Below are positions 8,064 to 48,774 of a stretch of 54,302 nt of DNA, one piece after another (the first letter of the stretch is position 1; each line of letters opens with the position of its first letter). The stretch is from Bacillota bacterium (GTDB taxonomy: Bacteria; Bacillota; Bacilli; Alicyclobacillales; SLC66): assembly GCA_021846285.1 (NCBI GenBank), contig JAJZCB010000012.1, forward strand, positions 1-54,302, read 5' to 3'. The notes beneath the pieces are model-generated. The model searched no databases and was not told where the DNA came from. It worked only from the letters and a program-made list of their open reading frames with translations. The translations under genes were made by a program, and so were the position numbers.

Positions 8064-8420
8064 ATGCACGAACTGAGCATCGCGGAGCAGATTGTGAGCA
8101 TCGTCGCAAAAGAGGGCGCCAGTGTCCACGCGGTTCGGGTGATCGGCGCGTCCGTGTCGGTGGGACGGCTGATGGCCATCGAAACAGACAATTTGCTGTT
8201 TTGCCTGGACGTACTGAAGAAAAGCGATCCGCTGACTGAACAGACAATCTTCACGGTGGAAGAAGAACGATTGCAATTGCGATGTAAGGCGTGCGGTCAC
8301 GTCACGGTGACGGACGAGTTCCTGTTCGCCTGCGGGGCTTGCCACTCGCAGGCTGTCGACGTGATCGGCGGGGAACAGTTGGAGGTCTCCTATCTGGAGG
8401 TGGAGTCGGATGAAGATTGA
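8064..8420 (+). CDS. hypA: HypA nickel-insertion metallochaperone
   Basis: 118 residues. MHELSIAEQ is the canonical N-terminus (the amide and His2 bind nickel), and CKACGH...CGACHS near residues 74-93 is the zinc site. HypA passes nickel, with GTPase HypB, to the hydrogenase large subunit. It starts two bases after hypE, and its last ten bases overlap hypB, so the three genes are translated as a coupled set. Confidence 0.94.
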   Translation: MHELSIAEQIVSIVAKEGASVHAVRVIGASVSVGRLMAIETDNLLFCLDVLKKSDPLTEQTIFTVEEERLQLRCKACGHVTVTDEFLFACGACHSQAVDVIGGEQLEVSYLEVESDED

Positions 8421-9189
8421 CGTGAAACAGAGTGTGATGGCGAAGATTGACGTGAGACAGAGTGTGATGGCGAAGATTGACGTGAAACAGAGTGTGATGG
8501 CCAAGATTGACGTGAAACAGAGTGTGATGGAAGCGAACAATGAATTGGCGGCGGAGCTTCGCGCGCGTTTTGCAGAGCGGCGCGTATTGACTCTCAACAT
8601 GATCAGTTCTCCGGGTTCTGGGAAAACGGCGCTGTTGGAGAACACCCTGCTGAGGTTGCGCAACCAATTGAACGTCGGGATTCTCGTCGGGGACGTGCAA
8701 ACGGAGAACGATGCCAGACGTTTGGCTGTCTATGGTTTTCCCGTCAAGCAGATCATCACCTCCGGCACGTGCCATCTGGAAGCTCATATGATCCAAAAGC
8801 ATTTGCCGTTTGTGGATCAGGGCGATCTGGATCTGCTGATCATTGAGAACGTCGGCAATTTGGTCTGTCCGTCGTCGTATGATCTGGGGGAAGATTTTAA
8901 AGTCGTCTTGCTCAGCGTCACAGAAGGGGAGGACAAGCCGTTAAAATACCCGGGCATATTTCGCCGTGCGAAAGTCGCCATGATCACGAAAACCGACTTG
9001 TTGCCACATACGGATTTTGATCTGGATCTGGCCGAACGCAATATCCGGTCTATTCACAACGAAATTGACATCCTTACCCTTTCCTCGCGCACAGGCGAAG
9101 GGTTCGACCGCTGGATCGACTGGCTGCAAAAGCGGGTGCAGGAGAAACAGTCGCTTGGCGCAGCGGAAAGAGAGCCGGAGTTCCCATGA
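8410..9189 (+). CDS. hypB: HypB GTPase, nickel insertion, with expanded N-terminal repeat
   Basis: 259 residues. P-loop SSPGSGKTALLE near residue 77, DVQTENDA, the metal-binding SGTCHLEAHM and TKTDLLPH are the HypB G-protein motifs. It hydrolyses GTP to drive nickel transfer with HypA. The N-terminus is unusual: the normal short leader (one unit KIDVKQSVM) is repeated four times in tandem before EANNELAAELRARF. Each 30-base unit ends in an in-frame ATG, so internal starts could give shorter HypB. The chosen start ATG 8410 follows GGAGGTGGAG. Its stop overlaps the first hypF start (ATGA). No His-rich nickel-storage stretch is present. Confidence 0.93.
   Translation: MKIDVKQSVMAKIDVRQSVMAKIDVKQSVMAKIDVKQSVMEANNELAAELRARFAERRVLTLNMISSPGSGKTALLENTLLRLRNQLNVGILVGDVQTENDARRLAVYGFPVKQIITSGTCHLEAHMIQKHLPFVDQGDLDLLIIENVGNLVCPSSYDLGEDFKVVLLSVTEGEDKPLKYPGIFRRAKVAMITKTDLLPHTDFDLDLAERNIRSIHNEIDILTLSSRTGEGFDRWIDWLQKRVQEKQSLGAAEREPEFP
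8413..8532 (+). repeat. Four tandem 30-nt repeats at the hypB 5' end
   Basis: Units start at 8413, 8443, 8473 and 8503; each reads AAG ATT GAC GTG A(A/G)A CAG AGT GTG ATG plus one codon. Only three substitutions separate the units, so the expansion is recent. The unit length is a multiple of three, which keeps the frame open. Confidence 0.97.
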
Positions 9190-9332
9190 GCGACGGCAAA
9201 AGGTTCGCGAACGGAGATCCGATGACCGGCGGTCCGGCTACCGCAAAGGGAGTTCCTGTGACCACCGAAGCGGCGACCGTAAACGGAGCCCCTGTGACCA
9301 CGGACGCGGCGATCGCACATGGAGTTCCCATG
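9177..9332 (+). repeat. Five tandem translation-start modules at 36-nt pitch in hypF
   Basis: GGAG, five bases, then ATG or GTG occurs at exactly 36-base spacing: starts at 9186, 9222, 9258, 9294 and 9330, with GGAG at 9177, 9213, 9249, 9285 and 9321. All are in the hypF frame. The last one (ATG 9330, MTGGRLILFVTG) is where a normal HypF would begin. The units are diverged between start sites but keep the spacing exactly. Confidence 0.92.
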
Positions 9333-11621
9333 ACCGGCGGACGTCTGATCCTGTTTGTCACGGGCGTGGTTCAGGGCGTCGGATTTCGCCCTTTTGTACA
9401 CCGGTTGGCTGAAAGCATGGGCATTGCCGGCAGGGTCCGCAATGAAGGAGCCCGCGTCAGGATCGATGTGGAAGGGGAGCCCGAAGTTCTGGCCGTGTTT
9501 GTCGAGCGTCTGCGCGCGGATCGCCCGGCCGCGGCGAATATTGAACAGATCGATGTCGAGTCCGCGCCTCCCGAGGGATATGGAGATTTTCAAATTGTTG
9601 GCTCGGCGATCGGCGCAAAGGGTTTGTCCTTTGGCATTCCGGCCGATCTGGCGATTTGTCCAGATTGCGTGCGCGATATGCAAACTCCGGGCAGTCGGTA
9701 TTACCGCTATCCCTTTACGTCCTGTACGCAGTGTGGTCCGCGCTATACGGCCGCAAAGAGTTTGCCGTTTGACCGTCAAACCACGGTGATGGAGAGTTTT
9801 CCGCTGTGCGCCGAATGCCTTCAGGAATACACCGATGCGCAGTCTCGCCGTTTTCATGCGCAGGCCACCGCCTGCGCGGCGTGCGGCCCCGAATTGCAGT
9901 GGCTGGCGCCGGACGGCCGCGTGATGGGCCGGGGTGAAGACGCGCTGAAGCGGGCCCAGGAGACACTTCGCGCCGGAGGAATTGCAGCGGTGCTGGGCAT
10001 TGGTGGGTTTCATCTCGCCGTCAATGCCAAGGATGAAGGGGCGGTGACGTTGTTGCGCCAGCGCAAGCGCCGGCCGTCAAAGCCGCTCGCGGTGATGATG
10101 ACCGAAGGGGCTCTGGCGGAATTCTGCGTCATCGACGAGATAGAGCACGCTTGGCTGACCTCCAAGGAGCATCCGATTCTCTTGGTGCGAAAGCGCATGA
10201 ACGCTGACCTGGCGCCCGGAGTCGCGCCGTACGTGAACCGATACGGCGTGTTTCTGCCGTACACCGGGGTGCATGTATTGCTGACATCCGAGGAAGCGCT
10301 TTCTGCGCTGGTCATGACGAGCGGCAATGTGAGTGGGGAACCGCTTGCGTTCACCACTCACGATGGACTGCGGCGACTGGGAAGCATCGCGGACGGTTTT
10401 CTCGTTCATAACCGCCCGATTATGCGGTCGGTTGACGATTCGATTCTGCGGATTGACGGGGGTGCGCCGCACATCATCCGGCGTTCGCGCGGGTTCGCGC
10501 CACAGGCGGACAGTGTGGCGCATATTGGGAAACATTGGCCGCCTCTGCTGGCGTTGGGGGGAGATCTCAAAAATGCGTTTGCCATTTCCGATCAGGGCAA
10601 GATGTGGCTGGGTCCTTATGGCGGCGATCTGGCGGAACCTCTGACGTTTGCAGTCTTTCAGGAACAAGTCGAGTGGTATCTGGGCATGTTGCGCGTCCGT
10701 CCTGAGTTTGTCGTCCATGATCCGCATCCGGGCTATGTCAGCCAAGCTTACGCTAAACAGTGTATCGAAGCGACGGTCTGCGTACAGCATCACCACGCGC
10801 ACATGGCGGCCACCATGCTTGAACATCGCCTGTCTTCCAGGACGCTTGGGATCATTCTCGATGGAACGGGGTACGGCGACGACGGAGCCGTGTGGGGTGG
10901 GGAGTTTCTCCTTGGCGATTTGAAGCGTGTGGAACGGGTGGGTCATCTGCGCCCTCTGCGTATGATCTCTGGCGATAACGCTGTGCGCGAACCCTGGCGG
11001 CTGGTTCTGAACTACCTCTATGAATGGGGGTTATGGGAGGAATTCGCGCCGTTTGTGGCCGCCGCTCTGGAACTGGATGAGAAGCAGGTGGCGCTCACGG
11101 AAAAGGCCTTGTGCAGCCGCTTGCCCGGCTATCGTTCCTCCAGCGCGGGGCGTCTCTTTGACGTGGCGGGGGTACTGATTACGGGACACAAGATCGCTAC
11201 ATTTGAAAGCGAGTTGCCATTGCGATTGGAAGCGTATGTGACGCCGTCAGTGACGGATGCATACGAGTTTCCTGTCGTACTGGAGCGGGGAAGATGGCTG
11301 GTGGAGTTGCAGCCGGGTATCAGACAATTGCTCGAAGACTTGCGCCGCAACGCGCCGCGACCGCAGATGGCTACAAAATTTCACCGTGGATTATGCAGCG
11401 GTCTGGTGGAAGCGGCGCAACGGATCGCCGCGGAAAACGGCATTCGCGAGGTTGTGTTGGGCGGAGGCGTGTGGCAGAATCCGTGGTTGTTACACTGGTT
11501 TATACAGGCGGCGGAGCGCGCGGGTTTCGCGGTGTATCACCCTGTCAAATGGCCTGCGAACGACGGCGGTCTGGCCGCCGGACAAACCGCCGTCGCTCTG
11601 GCTCGGCTGCAGGGGGATTGA
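9186..11621 (+). CDS. hypF: HypF carbamoyltransferase
   Basis: 811 residues from the first start, 763 from ATG 9330. The domains run in the usual order: acylphosphatase-like (GVVQGVGFRPF), paired zinc fingers (CPDCVRDM...CTQCGPRYT and CAECLQEYT...CAACGP), YrdC-like (KRRPSKPLAVM, LVMTSGNVSGEP), and a C-terminal Kae1-like domain (HHHAHMA, LDGTGYGDDG, LGGGVWQN). HypF uses carbamoyl phosphate and ATP to carbamoylate the C-terminal Cys of HypE. The first 48 residues come from the tandem start modules and match no HypF domain. The gene ends 25 bases before the left hairpin of the IS element. Confidence 0.95.
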   Translation: MSDGKRFANGDPMTGGPATAKGVPVTTEAATVNGAPVTTDAAIAHGVPMTGGRLILFVTGVVQGVGFRPFVHRLAESMGIAGRVRNEGARVRIDVEGEPEVLAVFVERLRADRPAAANIEQIDVESAPPEGYGDFQIVGSAIGAKGLSFGIPADLAICPDCVRDMQTPGSRYYRYPFTSCTQCGPRYTAAKSLPFDRQTTVMESFPLCAECLQEYTDAQSRRFHAQATACAACGPELQWLAPDGRVMGRGEDALKRAQETLRAGGIAAVLGIGGFHLAVNAKDEGAVTLLRQRKRRPSKPLAVMMTEGALAEFCVIDEIEHAWLTSKEHPILLVRKRMNADLAPGVAPYVNRYGVFLPYTGVHVLLTSEEALSALVMTSGNVSGEPLAFTTHDGLRRLGSIADGFLVHNRPIMRSVDDSILRIDGGAPHIIRRSRGFAPQADSVAHIGKHWPPLLALGGDLKNAFAISDQGKMWLGPYGGDLAEPLTFAVFQEQVEWYLGMLRVRPEFVVHDPHPGYVSQAYAKQCIEATVCVQHHHAHMAATMLEHRLSSRTLGIILDGTGYGDDGAVWGGEFLLGDLKRVERVGHLRPLRMISGDNAVREPWRLVLNYLYEWGLWEEFAPFVAAALELDEKQVALTEKALCSRLPGYRSSSAGRLFDVAGVLITGHKIATFESELPLRLEAYVTPSVTDAYEFPVVLERGRWLVELQPGIRQLLEDLRRNAPRPQMATKFHRGLCSGLVEAAQRIAAENGIREVVLGGGVWQNPWLLHWFIQAAERAGFAVYHPVKWPANDGGLAAGQTAVALARLQGD

Positions 11622-17874: not shown

Positions 17875-18836
17875 TCATATATCGCAAAATGGACCTTTTG
17901 GCTTCATACCGAGACAGATCCTTGTACCGTCCAAGAAGCGGAACCAAAACAGGTAGTTGTCCAGATACTTCGTGGCGACACCTTGAAATCGTTCCATCCA
18001 CTTCTTGAGTCGTTTGTGGTAGGCGTTGACGTGTTGTACGTGGTAAATACCTTTGCGGATATAAACGCCTTTTCGTATGTTAATAACTTCGTGATGAAAC
18101 CCTTTCATCCTTGCGAATGCCATGTAGTTCCTGGCGGAATCGGTGCAGAGTAGAGAGTCTGGAGCAAGGTATGAACCCAAGACAGCATCAATTTCTGTTG
18201 CTGTAATCCGACCACGACGAGCGTTTTGGGAAACAATATCTCCGTTTCGGTCAATGGCGACTACAACGCATACTTGTTCTTTGCTGATACCTCGTTTTTC
18301 CGCTACACCACGTTTTCTTGGTTTGCGAAAGGTCACAGGCTTTCGACCTTTAGGGATTCCAAGAAGAAGGTTTCATCTGATTCCACAATTCCGTTGAGAT
18401 CGTCATGACCAAGTGAACGAAGAGCCAAGAGTACCTTGTGTCGCCAATAAAACGCAGTAGAAACGTGAATATCAAGCAGCTTAGCAATTTTGGGCAGAGT
18501 GAGACCGTCCAACATACACTCGATGAATTTGAGCCATTTGTCAGGGTAGTGTGTGCCTGATAGAGGGCTGGCGGTTGTGTCGTTAAACGACTTCCCGCAA
18601 TCCCTACACAGATACCTTTGGCGGCTGCGGTACTTCCCATTTCTTTTGATCTTTTCACTGCCACAATGGACACACGCCAAACCTGCGCTGAAACGACTAT
18701 CACGAACTTCTTCAGCCACTTTGTCTAACTTCAACCGTGGTTCGGGAAAAGGGGTGTCCTTTATCTCCTCAAAAAGAGCAAGTTTCTCGCTCTGGCTCAA
18801 TTCATCAAAGTCTTCATAAAGGTCTTTCCACCCCAA
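17875..18836 (-). pseudogene. IS1595-type transposase, frameshifted
   Basis: Part one (18836 to 18333) has the N-terminal zinc-ribbon domain (CVHCGSEKIKRNGK ... CRDCGKSF) and the first catalytic Asp (IVESDETFF). Part two (18336 to 17875) continues with GVAEKRGISKEQV, the second Asp (LCTDSARNY) and the C-terminal HVNAYHKRLKKWMERFQG. Loss of one A near 18337-18343 (ESLK-GRKPVTF) accounts for the break. Clear terminal inverted repeats were not found in the flanks. Like the hydrolase beside it, this stretch is AT-rich. Confidence 0.85.
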
Positions 18837-18960
18837 TGAAATCGCTCCTTGGACAAGGTTTGTCGAACATTATACAGGATTGTCCATAGAACGACAATAT
18901 TTACGAAAAGAACCTTAGTTTTCATTATCCCAAGGAACGCCCAAAACAAAAATTTGCAGC

Positions 18961-18989
18961 TTGACGGAAGGCGAATGCGCGGGTAATAT
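18961..18989 (+). promoter_or_regulatory. Promoter of the trpS T-box operon
   Basis: TTGACG (18961-18966), 17 bases, TAATAT (18984-18989), about 45 bases ahead of the T-box stem I. Transcription should start near 18996. Confidence 0.65.
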
Positions 18990-19121
18990 GTAACGCAAAT
19001 GAACACGCGAATCGGCGATGAAGAAGAAGAGTAGGCGTTTGCGGGTGCAGGCAGAGAGCTGGTGGCCGGTGTGAACCAGTGCGCAGCGAACGCGGAAATG
19101 GGCTTCGGAGTCACTCTTTTG

Positions 19122-19310
19122 ATGGACGCAGAAACTGAGCTGGATCTCGTCTGGTGGAATCTCGCTTGGTGGAATCTCGCTTGGTGGAATCTCGCTTGGT
19201 GGAATCTCGCTTGGTGGAATGTCGTCTGTAGGAAGAGTCGGAACTGTCTCCCCGTTACAGGAGATGCGCGAAAAACAGTCGACTGTGATTCACTTTCGCG
19301 CGCAAAGTGA
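19122..19310 (+). CDS. Putative Trp-rich leader ORF inside the T-box (five Trp-Trp pairs)
   Basis: From ATG 19122 (GGAG at 19107-19110, a somewhat distant ribosome binding site) the frame runs 62 codons to TGA 19308. Near codon 10 begin four WWNLA units and a final WWNVV, ten UGG codons in all. The stop lies in the 3' arm of a hairpin (CACTTT 19291-19296, AAAGTG 19304-19309), probably a T-box leader stem, just before the T-box sequence. If translated, ribosomes would stall here when Trp-tRNA is short. Whether it is translated is unknown. Confidence 0.4.
   Translation: MDAETELDLVWWNLAWWNLAWWNLAWWNLAWWNVVCRKSRNCLPVTGDARKTVDCDSLSRAK
19153..19227 (+). repeat. Five tandem 15-nt repeats in the T-box leader
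   Basis: Units start at 19153, 19168, 19183, 19198 and 19213. The first four are identical (GGTGGAATCTCGCTT) and the fifth differs at three bases. Perfect identity points to recent expansion or active slippage. Confidence 0.97.
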
Positions 19311-19348
19311 GCCAGAGGCAGTTGTTTGGCTAATTAGGGTGGCACCGC

Positions 19349-19382
19349 GGTCCACGTCCCTAAAGGGACGGGGGCCTATTTG
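19349..19382 (+). terminator. T-box terminator hairpin with weak U-tract
   Basis: GGTCCACGTCCC and GGGACGGGGGCC pair over 12 positions with one A/G mismatch and a TAAA loop. The tail is only TATTTGCG, so termination may be leaky or assisted. It is mutually exclusive with the antiterminator formed by the T-box sequence just before it. Confidence 0.75.
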
Positions 19383-19401
19383 CGTTAAGGGGGTGATGGC
19401 C

Positions 19402-19440
19402 ATGGAGGATGGTTGGTGGCTGGCAAGCGGGGAAACGTAG
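19402..19440 (+). CDS. Putative 12-codon leader peptide with Trp-Trp, between terminator and trpS
   Basis: ATG 19402, eight bases after AAGGGGG (19387-19393), encodes MEDGWWLASGET and stops at TAG 19438, 27 bases before trpS. It has an excellent ribosome binding site for so small a frame and two adjacent Trp codons. It is transcribed only when the T-box terminator is bypassed, so it could couple trpS translation to Trp-tRNA charging as in translational attenuation. The function is inferred. Confidence 0.4.
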   Translation: MEDGWWLASGET

Positions 19441-19467
19441 CGCAAAGCAGAAGGGGTTGACATCGGC

Positions 19468-20490
19468 ATGGACGGCAAAGAACGTGCGCCGGGTGGGGAA
19501 CGTGTGCTGACAGGCGATCGCACGACGGGTCGATTGCATGTGGGACATCTCGTCGGCAGTCTGCAAAACAGAGTTGTGCTTCAGGATCGTCATGACCTGT
19601 TCTTGCTGTTGGCCGACGTCCAGGCATTGACGACGAACTTCAGCCATCCGGAAGGTTTGAGGGAATCTGTGCGCGGGATTGTTCTTGATTATCTCGCAGT
19701 GGGTATCGATCCTCAGCGAGCGACGATCGTCGTGCAGTCGCTGGTCCCGGAGATCGCAGAACTGACGGTGTACTATTCCATGTTTGTCACCGTCAATTCG
19801 CTGCGTCACAATCCGACGATCAAGGCGGAAGCCGCAGAACGCGGGTACAACGATCTGTATTATGGATTTTTGGGGTATCCGATCAGTCAGGCGGCAGACA
19901 TCACATTTTGCAAGGCGACGCTCGTTCCGGTTGGCGAGGATCAGTTGCCGCACATTGAGCAGACAAGAAAAATCGTCCGGCGTTTCAACGAACTCTATGG
20001 AGTGGTTTTTCCGGAACCGAGGCCGCTAGTGGGCAGGGTGCCGAGACTCGCGGGCCTCGACGGGTACGGAAAAATGAGCAAGAGTCGCAACAACGCCATC
20101 TATCTGGACAGCACCCAGGAAGAGGTGACGGAAAAGTTGCGCGCGGCTGTGACGGATCCCGCCCGCGTTCGTGCGACCGACCCCGGTCATCCGGAGATTT
20201 GTCCTGTATTCGCCTATCAGCAGGCGTTTAACGAGGACGGCGCGGCGGACGTGCATGCAGCCTGTTCCACGGGTCGGATTGGCTGCAAGGCTTGCAAGCA
20301 GATGGTCGCCGGGCTTCTCGAAGAGGTGTTGCAACCGATTCGTGAGCGCCGACAGCAGTTTGCGGCCCGGCCGGATGACATCTCGCAGATTCTCCTGACT
20401 GGCACGGAGCGTGCTCGCGGGATTGCCAAAGAGACGATGCGGGAAGTTCGGGAAGCGATGAAGATGAACTATCTTGCAGAAAGTGGATAG
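19468..20490 (+). CDS. trpS: Tryptophanyl-tRNA synthetase, probable Fe-S-binding type
   Basis: 340 residues, class I synthetase. The HIGH-like motif is GRLHVGHLVG near residue 21-30, KMSKS is intact (GKMSKSRNN near 200). It attaches Trp to tRNA-Trp. Four cysteines near residues 245, 266, 273 and 276 have the spacing C-x20-C-x6-C-x2-C (the last three in CSTGRIGCKACK). This closely resembles the 4Fe-4S motif described in Thermotoga TrpRS (C-x22-C-x6-C-x2-C), in the anticodon-binding region, so a cluster is likely. The start ATG 19468 follows AAGGGG at 11 bases. The gene is controlled by the T-box upstream and followed by two methyltransferase genes. Confidence 0.93.
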   Translation: MDGKERAPGGERVLTGDRTTGRLHVGHLVGSLQNRVVLQDRHDLFLLLADVQALTTNFSHPEGLRESVRGIVLDYLAVGIDPQRATIVVQSLVPEIAELTVYYSMFVTVNSLRHNPTIKAEAAERGYNDLYYGFLGYPISQAADITFCKATLVPVGEDQLPHIEQTRKIVRRFNELYGVVFPEPRPLVGRVPRLAGLDGYGKMSKSRNNAIYLDSTQEEVTEKLRAAVTDPARVRATDPGHPEICPVFAYQQAFNEDGAADVHAACSTGRIGCKACKQMVAGLLEEVLQPIRERRQQFAARPDDISQILLTGTERARGIAKETMREVREAMKMNYLAESG

Positions 20491-20510
20491 TGAGCATAGA
20501 AAGGTGAGAC

Positions 20511-20540
20511 GAGAAGAGATGAGCAGAGAAGAGATGAGTG
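20511..20540 (+). repeat. Duplicated 15-nt translation-start region
   Basis: GAGAAGAGATGAG(C/T)(A/G) occurs twice back to back (20511-20525, 20526-20540). Each copy has a purine-rich GAGAAGAG run followed directly by an in-frame ATG (20519, 20534), so the downstream gene has two equivalent starts. Confidence 0.85.
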
Positions 20541-48539: not shown

Positions 48540-48599
48540 GGAAAATAAAGTTGTGTACCGAAAAATAAAATCCTATACTGGAAAATAAAGCTGTATACT
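48540..48599. repeat. Three tandem ~20-nt repeats
   Basis: Units at 48540, 48560 and 48580 read (G)GAAAAATAAA-like followed by a TATAC(T/C)-like end. The 20-base period equals about two helical turns, so proteins bound to each unit would sit on the same DNA face. Arrays like this occur as multiple transposase sites at ends of IS21- or Tn7-like elements, or as operators. No matching second end is seen. The rest of 48600-48774 holds no gene. Confidence 0.75.
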
Positions 48600-48774
48600 G
48601 GCGGAAACCGAGCCGTGAGAATTTGGTTAGGGCGTGGCAGTGAGGGCAAGATCGATTTATACATCCGAAGCGAACAAGTATGCAGAAAGCTTCTGGTCGC
48701 TTGTATCGTTAACGGGCAGATAAGCGACGTAAGACAAACGGGTAATTTATGGGGAATCCTTCAGGAATGACTGG

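Follow-up and report, generated by a model that had tools for sequence, protein, structure and literature searches.

A T-box and a conserved Trp-codon leader frame ahead of an auxiliary tryptophanyl-tRNA synthetase gene as a probable rtpLP-type tandem sensor

Introduction

The leader of the Bacillus subtilis at operon (rtpA, yczA; anti-TRAP) and its leader peptide, rtpLP, were reportedly described by Chen and Yanofsky in 2003 and 2004. According to the accessible portion of one account, rtpA of B. subtilis is under a Trp T-box, and RtpLP contains three Trp codons, its complete translation preventing translation of RtpA (PMC2311275). Within the literature consulted, as far as the sources were accessible, a tandem of T-box and leader-peptide sensor is described only for this operon. 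In Streptomyces, a Trp-codon leader peptide precedes a second trpS gene, trpS2, with a terminator after the leader through which transcription is controlled; in the available part of the same source, classical attenuation is said not to be known for any aminoacyl-tRNA synthetase gene of Firmicutes (PMC1262725). A second, indolmycin-resistant TrpRS of Streptomyces griseus is termed auxiliary in the portion available of PMC6804068. No report of a tandem leader of this type ahead of a Firmicutes trpS was found in the literature searched, whose coverage excludes most subscription papers, and the accessible parts of PMC2494555, PMC11255114, PMC7430163, PMC8346122, PMC2311275, PMC1262725 and PMC6804068 describe no such trpS leader.

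Here, we analyzed a stretch of 54,302 nucleotides from a Bacillota bacterium (hereafter the window; assembly GCA_021846285.1, contig JAJZCB010000012.1, positions 1 to 54,302, forward strand), in which a T-box and a short Trp-codon frame precede an auxiliary trpS.

Results and discussion

T-box leader and its trpS gene

The T-box leader RNA occupies positions 19,009 to 19,364 of the plus strand (RF00230, 98.7 bits against a gathering score of 93, E 1.4e-20). Reading of the sequence located both the Trp specifier TGG (19,099-19,101, plus strand) and the T-box sequence AGGGTGGCACCGCG (19,336-19,349, plus strand), so that the leader belongs to RF00230 by score and by both elements, and its overall fold is also like that of the family. 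A candidate promoter, TTGACG-17-TAATAT (18,961-18,989, plus strand), was called by consensus match alone (9 of 12 positions); the scan returned two promoter-like sites on both strands of 18,850-19,520, compared with a mean of 0.5 in shuffled sequences. Directly upstream of the leader, the minus strand carries an IS1595/ISXO2-like transposase whose sequence is divided between two frames (17,875-18,836).

At the 3′ end of the T-box, a presumed terminator hairpin, assigned by eye (19,349-19,376, plus strand), is followed by TATTTG, a weak T-run with four T among the next eight bases. The terminator scan gave no terminator-like site in 18,850-19,520, which makes the strength of the presumed hairpin doubtful. 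Transcriptional control by the T-box is accordingly less certain for the window than for the many relatives that have long T-runs behind the hairpin.

The downstream gene (19,468-20,490, plus strand) encodes an auxiliary tryptophanyl-tRNA synthetase of the TrpRS II type (TIGR00233, 256.1 bits against a cut-off of 176.75); among solved structures, its product is best matched by 1yi8 and by 2a4m, a protein named TrpRS II. A second trpS in the genome (G000:C156) is 33% identical, and the 1.9-kb stretch around it (L135) contained no T-box at E values up to 0.001. Among the 17 T-boxes of the genome, with downstream proteins judged by eye, that of trpS alone was seen ahead of a tryptophan gene. By eye, two near-identical T-box thrS starts were noticed on two contigs (L013 and L014; G000:C42 and G000:C77), along with a third T-box thrS-like gene (L016). 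TRAP is encoded in the genome (L128 and L136; G000:C14), and anti-TRAP gave no match there. The auxiliary TrpRS is patchy, being found in 26 of 398 genomes of the class; in plasmids and phages (83 and 17 records), the TrpRS relatives were all below 60% identity, and anti-TRAP had no match in plasmids.

A 12-codon frame between the T-box and trpS

Between the T-box and trpS lies a 12-codon frame, MEDGWWLASGET, of a conserved MxDGWW type, running from ATG at 19,402 to TAG at 19,440 on the plus strand, with its Trp codons at 19,414-19,419. Its Shine-Dalgarno sequence, AAGGGGGTGAT (19,387-19,397, plus strand), is conserved in the leader alignment and pairs at -14.5 kcal/mol, a strength matched by 0.07% of the 2968 plus-strand start codons in the window; that of trpS, GAAGGGG (19,450-19,456, plus strand), pairs at -8.9 kcal/mol. 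The leader frame of the window's genus stops short of trpS, leaving 27 nt to the ATG of the gene and 9 nt to its Shine-Dalgarno. The preliminary description of this DNA, made from the letters alone, had proposed a T-box leader of trpS with a Trp specifier and, downstream, a 12-codon frame carrying WW behind a strong ribosome binding site; both proposals are borne out.

Two elements therefore follow one another in the window: a Trp T-box, and a short frame that has a strong Shine-Dalgarno and adjacent Trp codons. This arrangement is like that of rtpLP, which shares the M-x-D-G-W-W start, and the short gap between the end of the window's leader and the next Shine-Dalgarno is also seen at several rtpA leaders. 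Unlike in the at operon, the regulated gene is trpS rather than rtpA; since the genome also gave no anti-TRAP match, the action may be rtpLP-like but the locus is not an at operon. A Trp-codon leader peptide ahead of a second trpS likewise recalls the Streptomyces trpS2 attenuator as described in the accessible part of PMC1262725, whereas here a T-box stands upstream and the terminator scan of 18,850-19,520 found no terminator-like site between leader frame and trpS, as a classical leader-peptide attenuator of transcription would have.

Conservation and register among trpS2-type loci

We compared 41 trpS2-type loci collected in three TrpRS searches (11, eight others above 60% identity and 22 new), with L029 merged into the window, L030 into L018 and a partial match in G002 left out. 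The T-box together with the leader was present in 40 of the 41, and the MxDGWW-type leader was thus retained in the comparison with related genomes that the preliminary description had suggested. The remaining locus, L025 (Lachnospiraceae, 47% identity), yielded neither T-box nor leader. A generic scan for a start codon with WW within ten codons, the starts being set by a narrower pattern written afterwards, recovered the frame in all loci except L025 and L028, the latter having WR. The T-box exceeded the gathering score in 35 of the 40 leader-bearing loci, L081 and L082 among them, and fell below it in L020, L023, L062, L071 and L072, the weakest being L062 at 36.1 bits. The spacer from T-box to leader is highly variable in length. 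A strict DNA pattern matched twice in 398 genomes of the phylum, a count to be read as that of too strict a pattern in a sample with few genomes of the window's class.

After exclusion of the window, L028 and L075, 35 rows, all outside the window's genus, were available for placing the leader frame relative to trpS. Every one of them has trpS at 1 mod 3 from the leader start. The distances take ten values between 58 and 115 and depend on which in-frame trpS start is chosen, unlike the register. The leader frame is free of stops up to position +60 of trpS in 35/35 rows, although the need to encode a conserved protein accounts for part of this openness inside trpS. From codon 8 to trpS, one of the remaining frames meets a stop in 29/35 rows and the other in 20/35. 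These rows have the leader stop 68-200 nt inside trpS, an overlap in place of the gap seen in the window. Because the rows are related, the counts do not stand for independent events. We infer from the sequences that 1 mod 3 is the only register in which a leader can cross an ATG-A start out of frame while avoiding the TGA of ATGA. L075 (G082) has its WW leader and trpS2 joined in a single frame of 353 residues.

Related leaders at trpS1-type and anti-TRAP loci

R1, a model that uses sequence alone, was trained on 30 of the 36 distinct trpS2-leader 43-mers. Run over the 398 genomes of the class with filters that lose weak matches, it matched 37, once each; all 26 trpS2 genomes were among these, partly by construction, most of their leaders being in R1. 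The other 11 matches are independent of the model. Two are trpS2 remnants (L123 and L124), three stand ahead of anti-TRAP or its remnant (L126, L127 and L134), and five were taken as trpS1-type, four of them by N-terminal motif (L129-L132) and G543 by inference from its kin G513 and G573. The last, L133 (G482), is a leader-like block with neither Trp codons nor T-box, located behind an M-box riboswitch (R1 E 5.8e-4).

At the matched trpS1-type loci, the register was 1 mod 3 in 4/4 inspected, of which L131 and L132 are close kin, and at two the leader stop lies 8 nt inside the gene. A separate set of 20 trpS1-type loci contained a T-box above the gathering score in five, and none of the five had a WW leader; unlike the leader in the window, these T-box trpS leaders are without a leader frame. 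No WW frame was found upstream of trpS1-type genes in 21 loci scanned.

In the genus of G658, R1 matched 23 of 44 genomes, although rtpA leaders were absent from its training set. Twenty of these loci and L134 were inspected, with G836 and G827 left out, and anti-TRAP was downstream in 19 of the 20, L144 being the remaining one. The 20 leaders carry WW in 11 cases, at least two Trp codons in 16 and a single Trp codon in four. One of them, the ten-codon MYDGWWWHSR of L150 with its three Trp, precedes an anti-TRAP whose first 30 residues equal the B. subtilis sequence; the L150 leader is taken as rtpLP of B. subtilis or a near relative. Unlike the trpS leaders, which mostly overlap the gene start at a fixed +1 (35/35 rows and 4/4 trpS1-type loci), the rtpA leaders are of mixed register among 19 loci measured, with leaders that terminate ahead of the gene, within it or at its end. 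In L140, L141 and L148, leader and anti-TRAP form one continuous frame. In a further comparison of 15 anti-TRAP loci, the T-box surpassed the gathering score in three (L083, L085 and L091) and a WW leader occurred in L083 only, so control by T-box plus leader is often missing at anti-TRAP. L091 has an anti-TRAP with a T-box and no WW leader, in the window's order.

Proposed mechanism and alternatives

On its anatomy, its conservation, its frame register and its observed relation to the rtpA leader, the trpS leader is probably a tandem tryptophan sensor of the rtpLP type, with the T-box acting on transcription and Trp-codon stalling on translation; the stalling, the occlusion and the direction of regulation are taken by analogy from rtpA. 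In the first step, a T-box bound by uncharged tRNA-Trp would let RNA polymerase past the terminator. In the second, the strong leader site would recruit ribosomes. When Trp-tRNA is abundant, the leader would be translated and the trpS start region covered or swept, keeping trpS low; when it is scarce, ribosomes would halt on the two adjacent Trp codons, some 40-100 nt 5′ of the trpS start, leaving the start free. In most relatives, ribosomes on the leader frame would cross the trpS start out of frame, and in the window's genus they would stop 9 nt before the trpS Shine-Dalgarno, in a layout resembling the rtpA leader. A stalling role for the 12-codon frame is well supported by comparison, through the presence of the leader in 40/41 trpS2 loci and its kinship to rtpLP. 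Weighing against the tandem sensor are the layout of the window's genus, which is unlike that of most relatives, and the in-frame L075, as well as the single-Trp rtpA leaders (4/20) and the mixed register of rtpA with its three in-frame fusions.

Alignment and folding of 29 sequences in four groups gave no shared helix that hides the trpS site, one group having a weak short helix nearby; direct occlusion by the ribosome is therefore favored over a structural switch, which the predicted folding would allow in a few loci. The mean unpaired probability predicted for the trpS Shine-Dalgarno ranged from 0.30 to 0.81 over 36 loci, with 25/36 at 0.5 or above. This accessibility is middling and also weighs against a tandem sensor. 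Omission of the first 30 nt of the leader was predicted to raise it in some loci and lower it in others.

The leader frame could instead be translated for positive coupling, opening or delivering the trpS start while its Trp codons merely tune the process. The strong leader Shine-Dalgarno and the nearness to trpS fit such coupling too, re-initiation would be possible at the two trpS1-type genes in which the leader stops 8 nt inside, and freeing the leader's first 30 nt is predicted to raise the accessibility of the trpS site from 0.30 to 0.69 in L062 and from 0.34 to 0.73 in L065 (both Brevibacillus-like). However, we consider this unlikely: a leader stop 68-200 nt inside trpS, as in the 35 rows, is far for re-initiation and is reached out of frame, no group-wide helix hides the trpS site, and the effect of rtpLP is reported as negative in the accessible part of PMC2311275.

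Very improbable is a second alternative, in which the conserved block would be an RNA signal made up of the long Shine-Dalgarno and GAUGGNUGGUGG, the peptide being irrelevant. The block is highly conserved in nucleotides from AAGG to TGGTGG, and TGG, found at codons 5 and 6 in 38 and 37 of 38 rows, has no synonym (duplicates L018, L030 and L032 were removed before counting, and two row pairs still share a 43-mer). In the same rows, however, the start codon switches among ATG (25), GTG (12) and TTG (1), and codons 3 (GAT 27, GAC 9, other 2) and 4 (GGT 19, GGC 17, other 2) vary mostly at third positions. Furthermore, the spacing to trpS moves in steps of three with the frame open, and the groups share no fold. 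In favor of the tandem sensor, codon 6 is no longer TGG in two of three loci with a broken trpS2, against none of 37 intact rows (Fisher p 0.0038, in a post hoc test that ignores kinship and includes L028, a metagenome assembly); besides L028, the broken loci are L123, where codons 5 and 7 still encode W, and L124, with WW intact. At positions 1976-2306 of L028, trpS2 is internally deleted, with a repeat expansion near the N-terminus.

The repeat array in stem II

The preliminary description had further reported a perfect 15-nt tandem repeat between stem I and the T-box, reading in frame as ten Trp codons. The array exists (19,144-19,224, plus strand; period 15, 5.4 copies), although with 95% matches it is short of perfect, and it forms part of the T-box stem II arm (19,113-19,238, plus strand; fold of 19,108-19,240 at -49.2 kcal/mol, z -3.33) rather than of a free spacer; the usual T-box of RF00230, unlike that of the window, has no such array in stem II. 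The frame with ten Trp codons is likewise present, from ATG 19,122 to 19,310 on the plus strand, or longer from GTG 19,062, and remains open from 19,062 to 19,310; its translation contains ...LVWWNLAWWNLAWWNLAWWNLAWWNVV... The ten codons are one TGGTGG in five copies and do not represent ten independent events.

A reading in which this frame is also translated, its ten Trp codons providing a second stalling site that acts on transcription within the T-box, is slightly less credible still than an RNA signal. The period of 15 preserves the frame, which is open throughout with its ten Trp codons; Shine-Dalgarno pairing at both of its starts is, however, an ordinary -6.1 kcal/mol, reached by 15% of the 2968 plus-strand start codons of the window. 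Two relatives of the same genus, L018 and L028, share the leader with an array 45 nt shorter, and the frame is closed in both: TAG stands at the position of the first Trp codon in L018, and L028 reads MGAETELDLVWWNLAW and then TGA. In L028, WW and a third Trp codon precede the stop; a minor role for the frame is possible because WW is retained there. The outer stem II helix is the same in both relatives, whose arms are shorter (fold z -1.87 and -1.91), and the array strengthens the fold of the arm in which it lies. The frame at 19,122-19,310 is thus probably not translated and was dropped as a leading candidate for a sensor, on its closure in 2/2 same-genus relatives, its ordinary Shine-Dalgarno and the folding of the array as stem II, and the array is likeliest to be a slippage expansion of a tolerant RNA arm. 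Comparison with related genomes thereby spoke against a frame that the preliminary description had counted as one of two Trp-rich sensors adding stalling to tRNA sensing, one on transcription and one on translation; the part that is supported is a single added sensor, the 12-codon frame acting on translation.

That the 12-codon frame is itself a chance frame, as occurs in any spacer, is scarcely credible given its presence in 40/41 trpS2-type loci with coding and register signals.

Implications for control of a second TrpRS

The balance tips slightly towards a T-box plus DGWW leader that is a portable two-lock cassette, used for trpS2, some trpS1 and anti-TRAP in several families and laid out at trpS in overlap, nearly always at +1, where only a stall at two Trp codons would license translation. 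Its occurrences at trpS1 and anti-TRAP suggest, on sequence grounds, that more than one kind of tryptophan gene can be placed behind the cassette. If this is true, the backup synthetase would be inducible only upon failure of tRNA-Trp charging, as under a TrpRS inhibitor such as indolmycin, and rtpLP of B. subtilis would be one specialized member of the cassette. With a tandem sensor found at trpS in several families, such a guard on the second TrpRS may be more general, and the patchy auxiliary enzyme may be kept doubly off until charging of tRNA-Trp fails. The conserved overlap register also provides dozens of natural variants for testing occlusion of a start site by the ribosome.

Other short tandem arrays occur in the window at 8,412-8,530, 9,206-9,343, 20,491-20,538 and 48,540-48,601; the one at 20,491-20,538, directly behind trpS, also has a period of 15.
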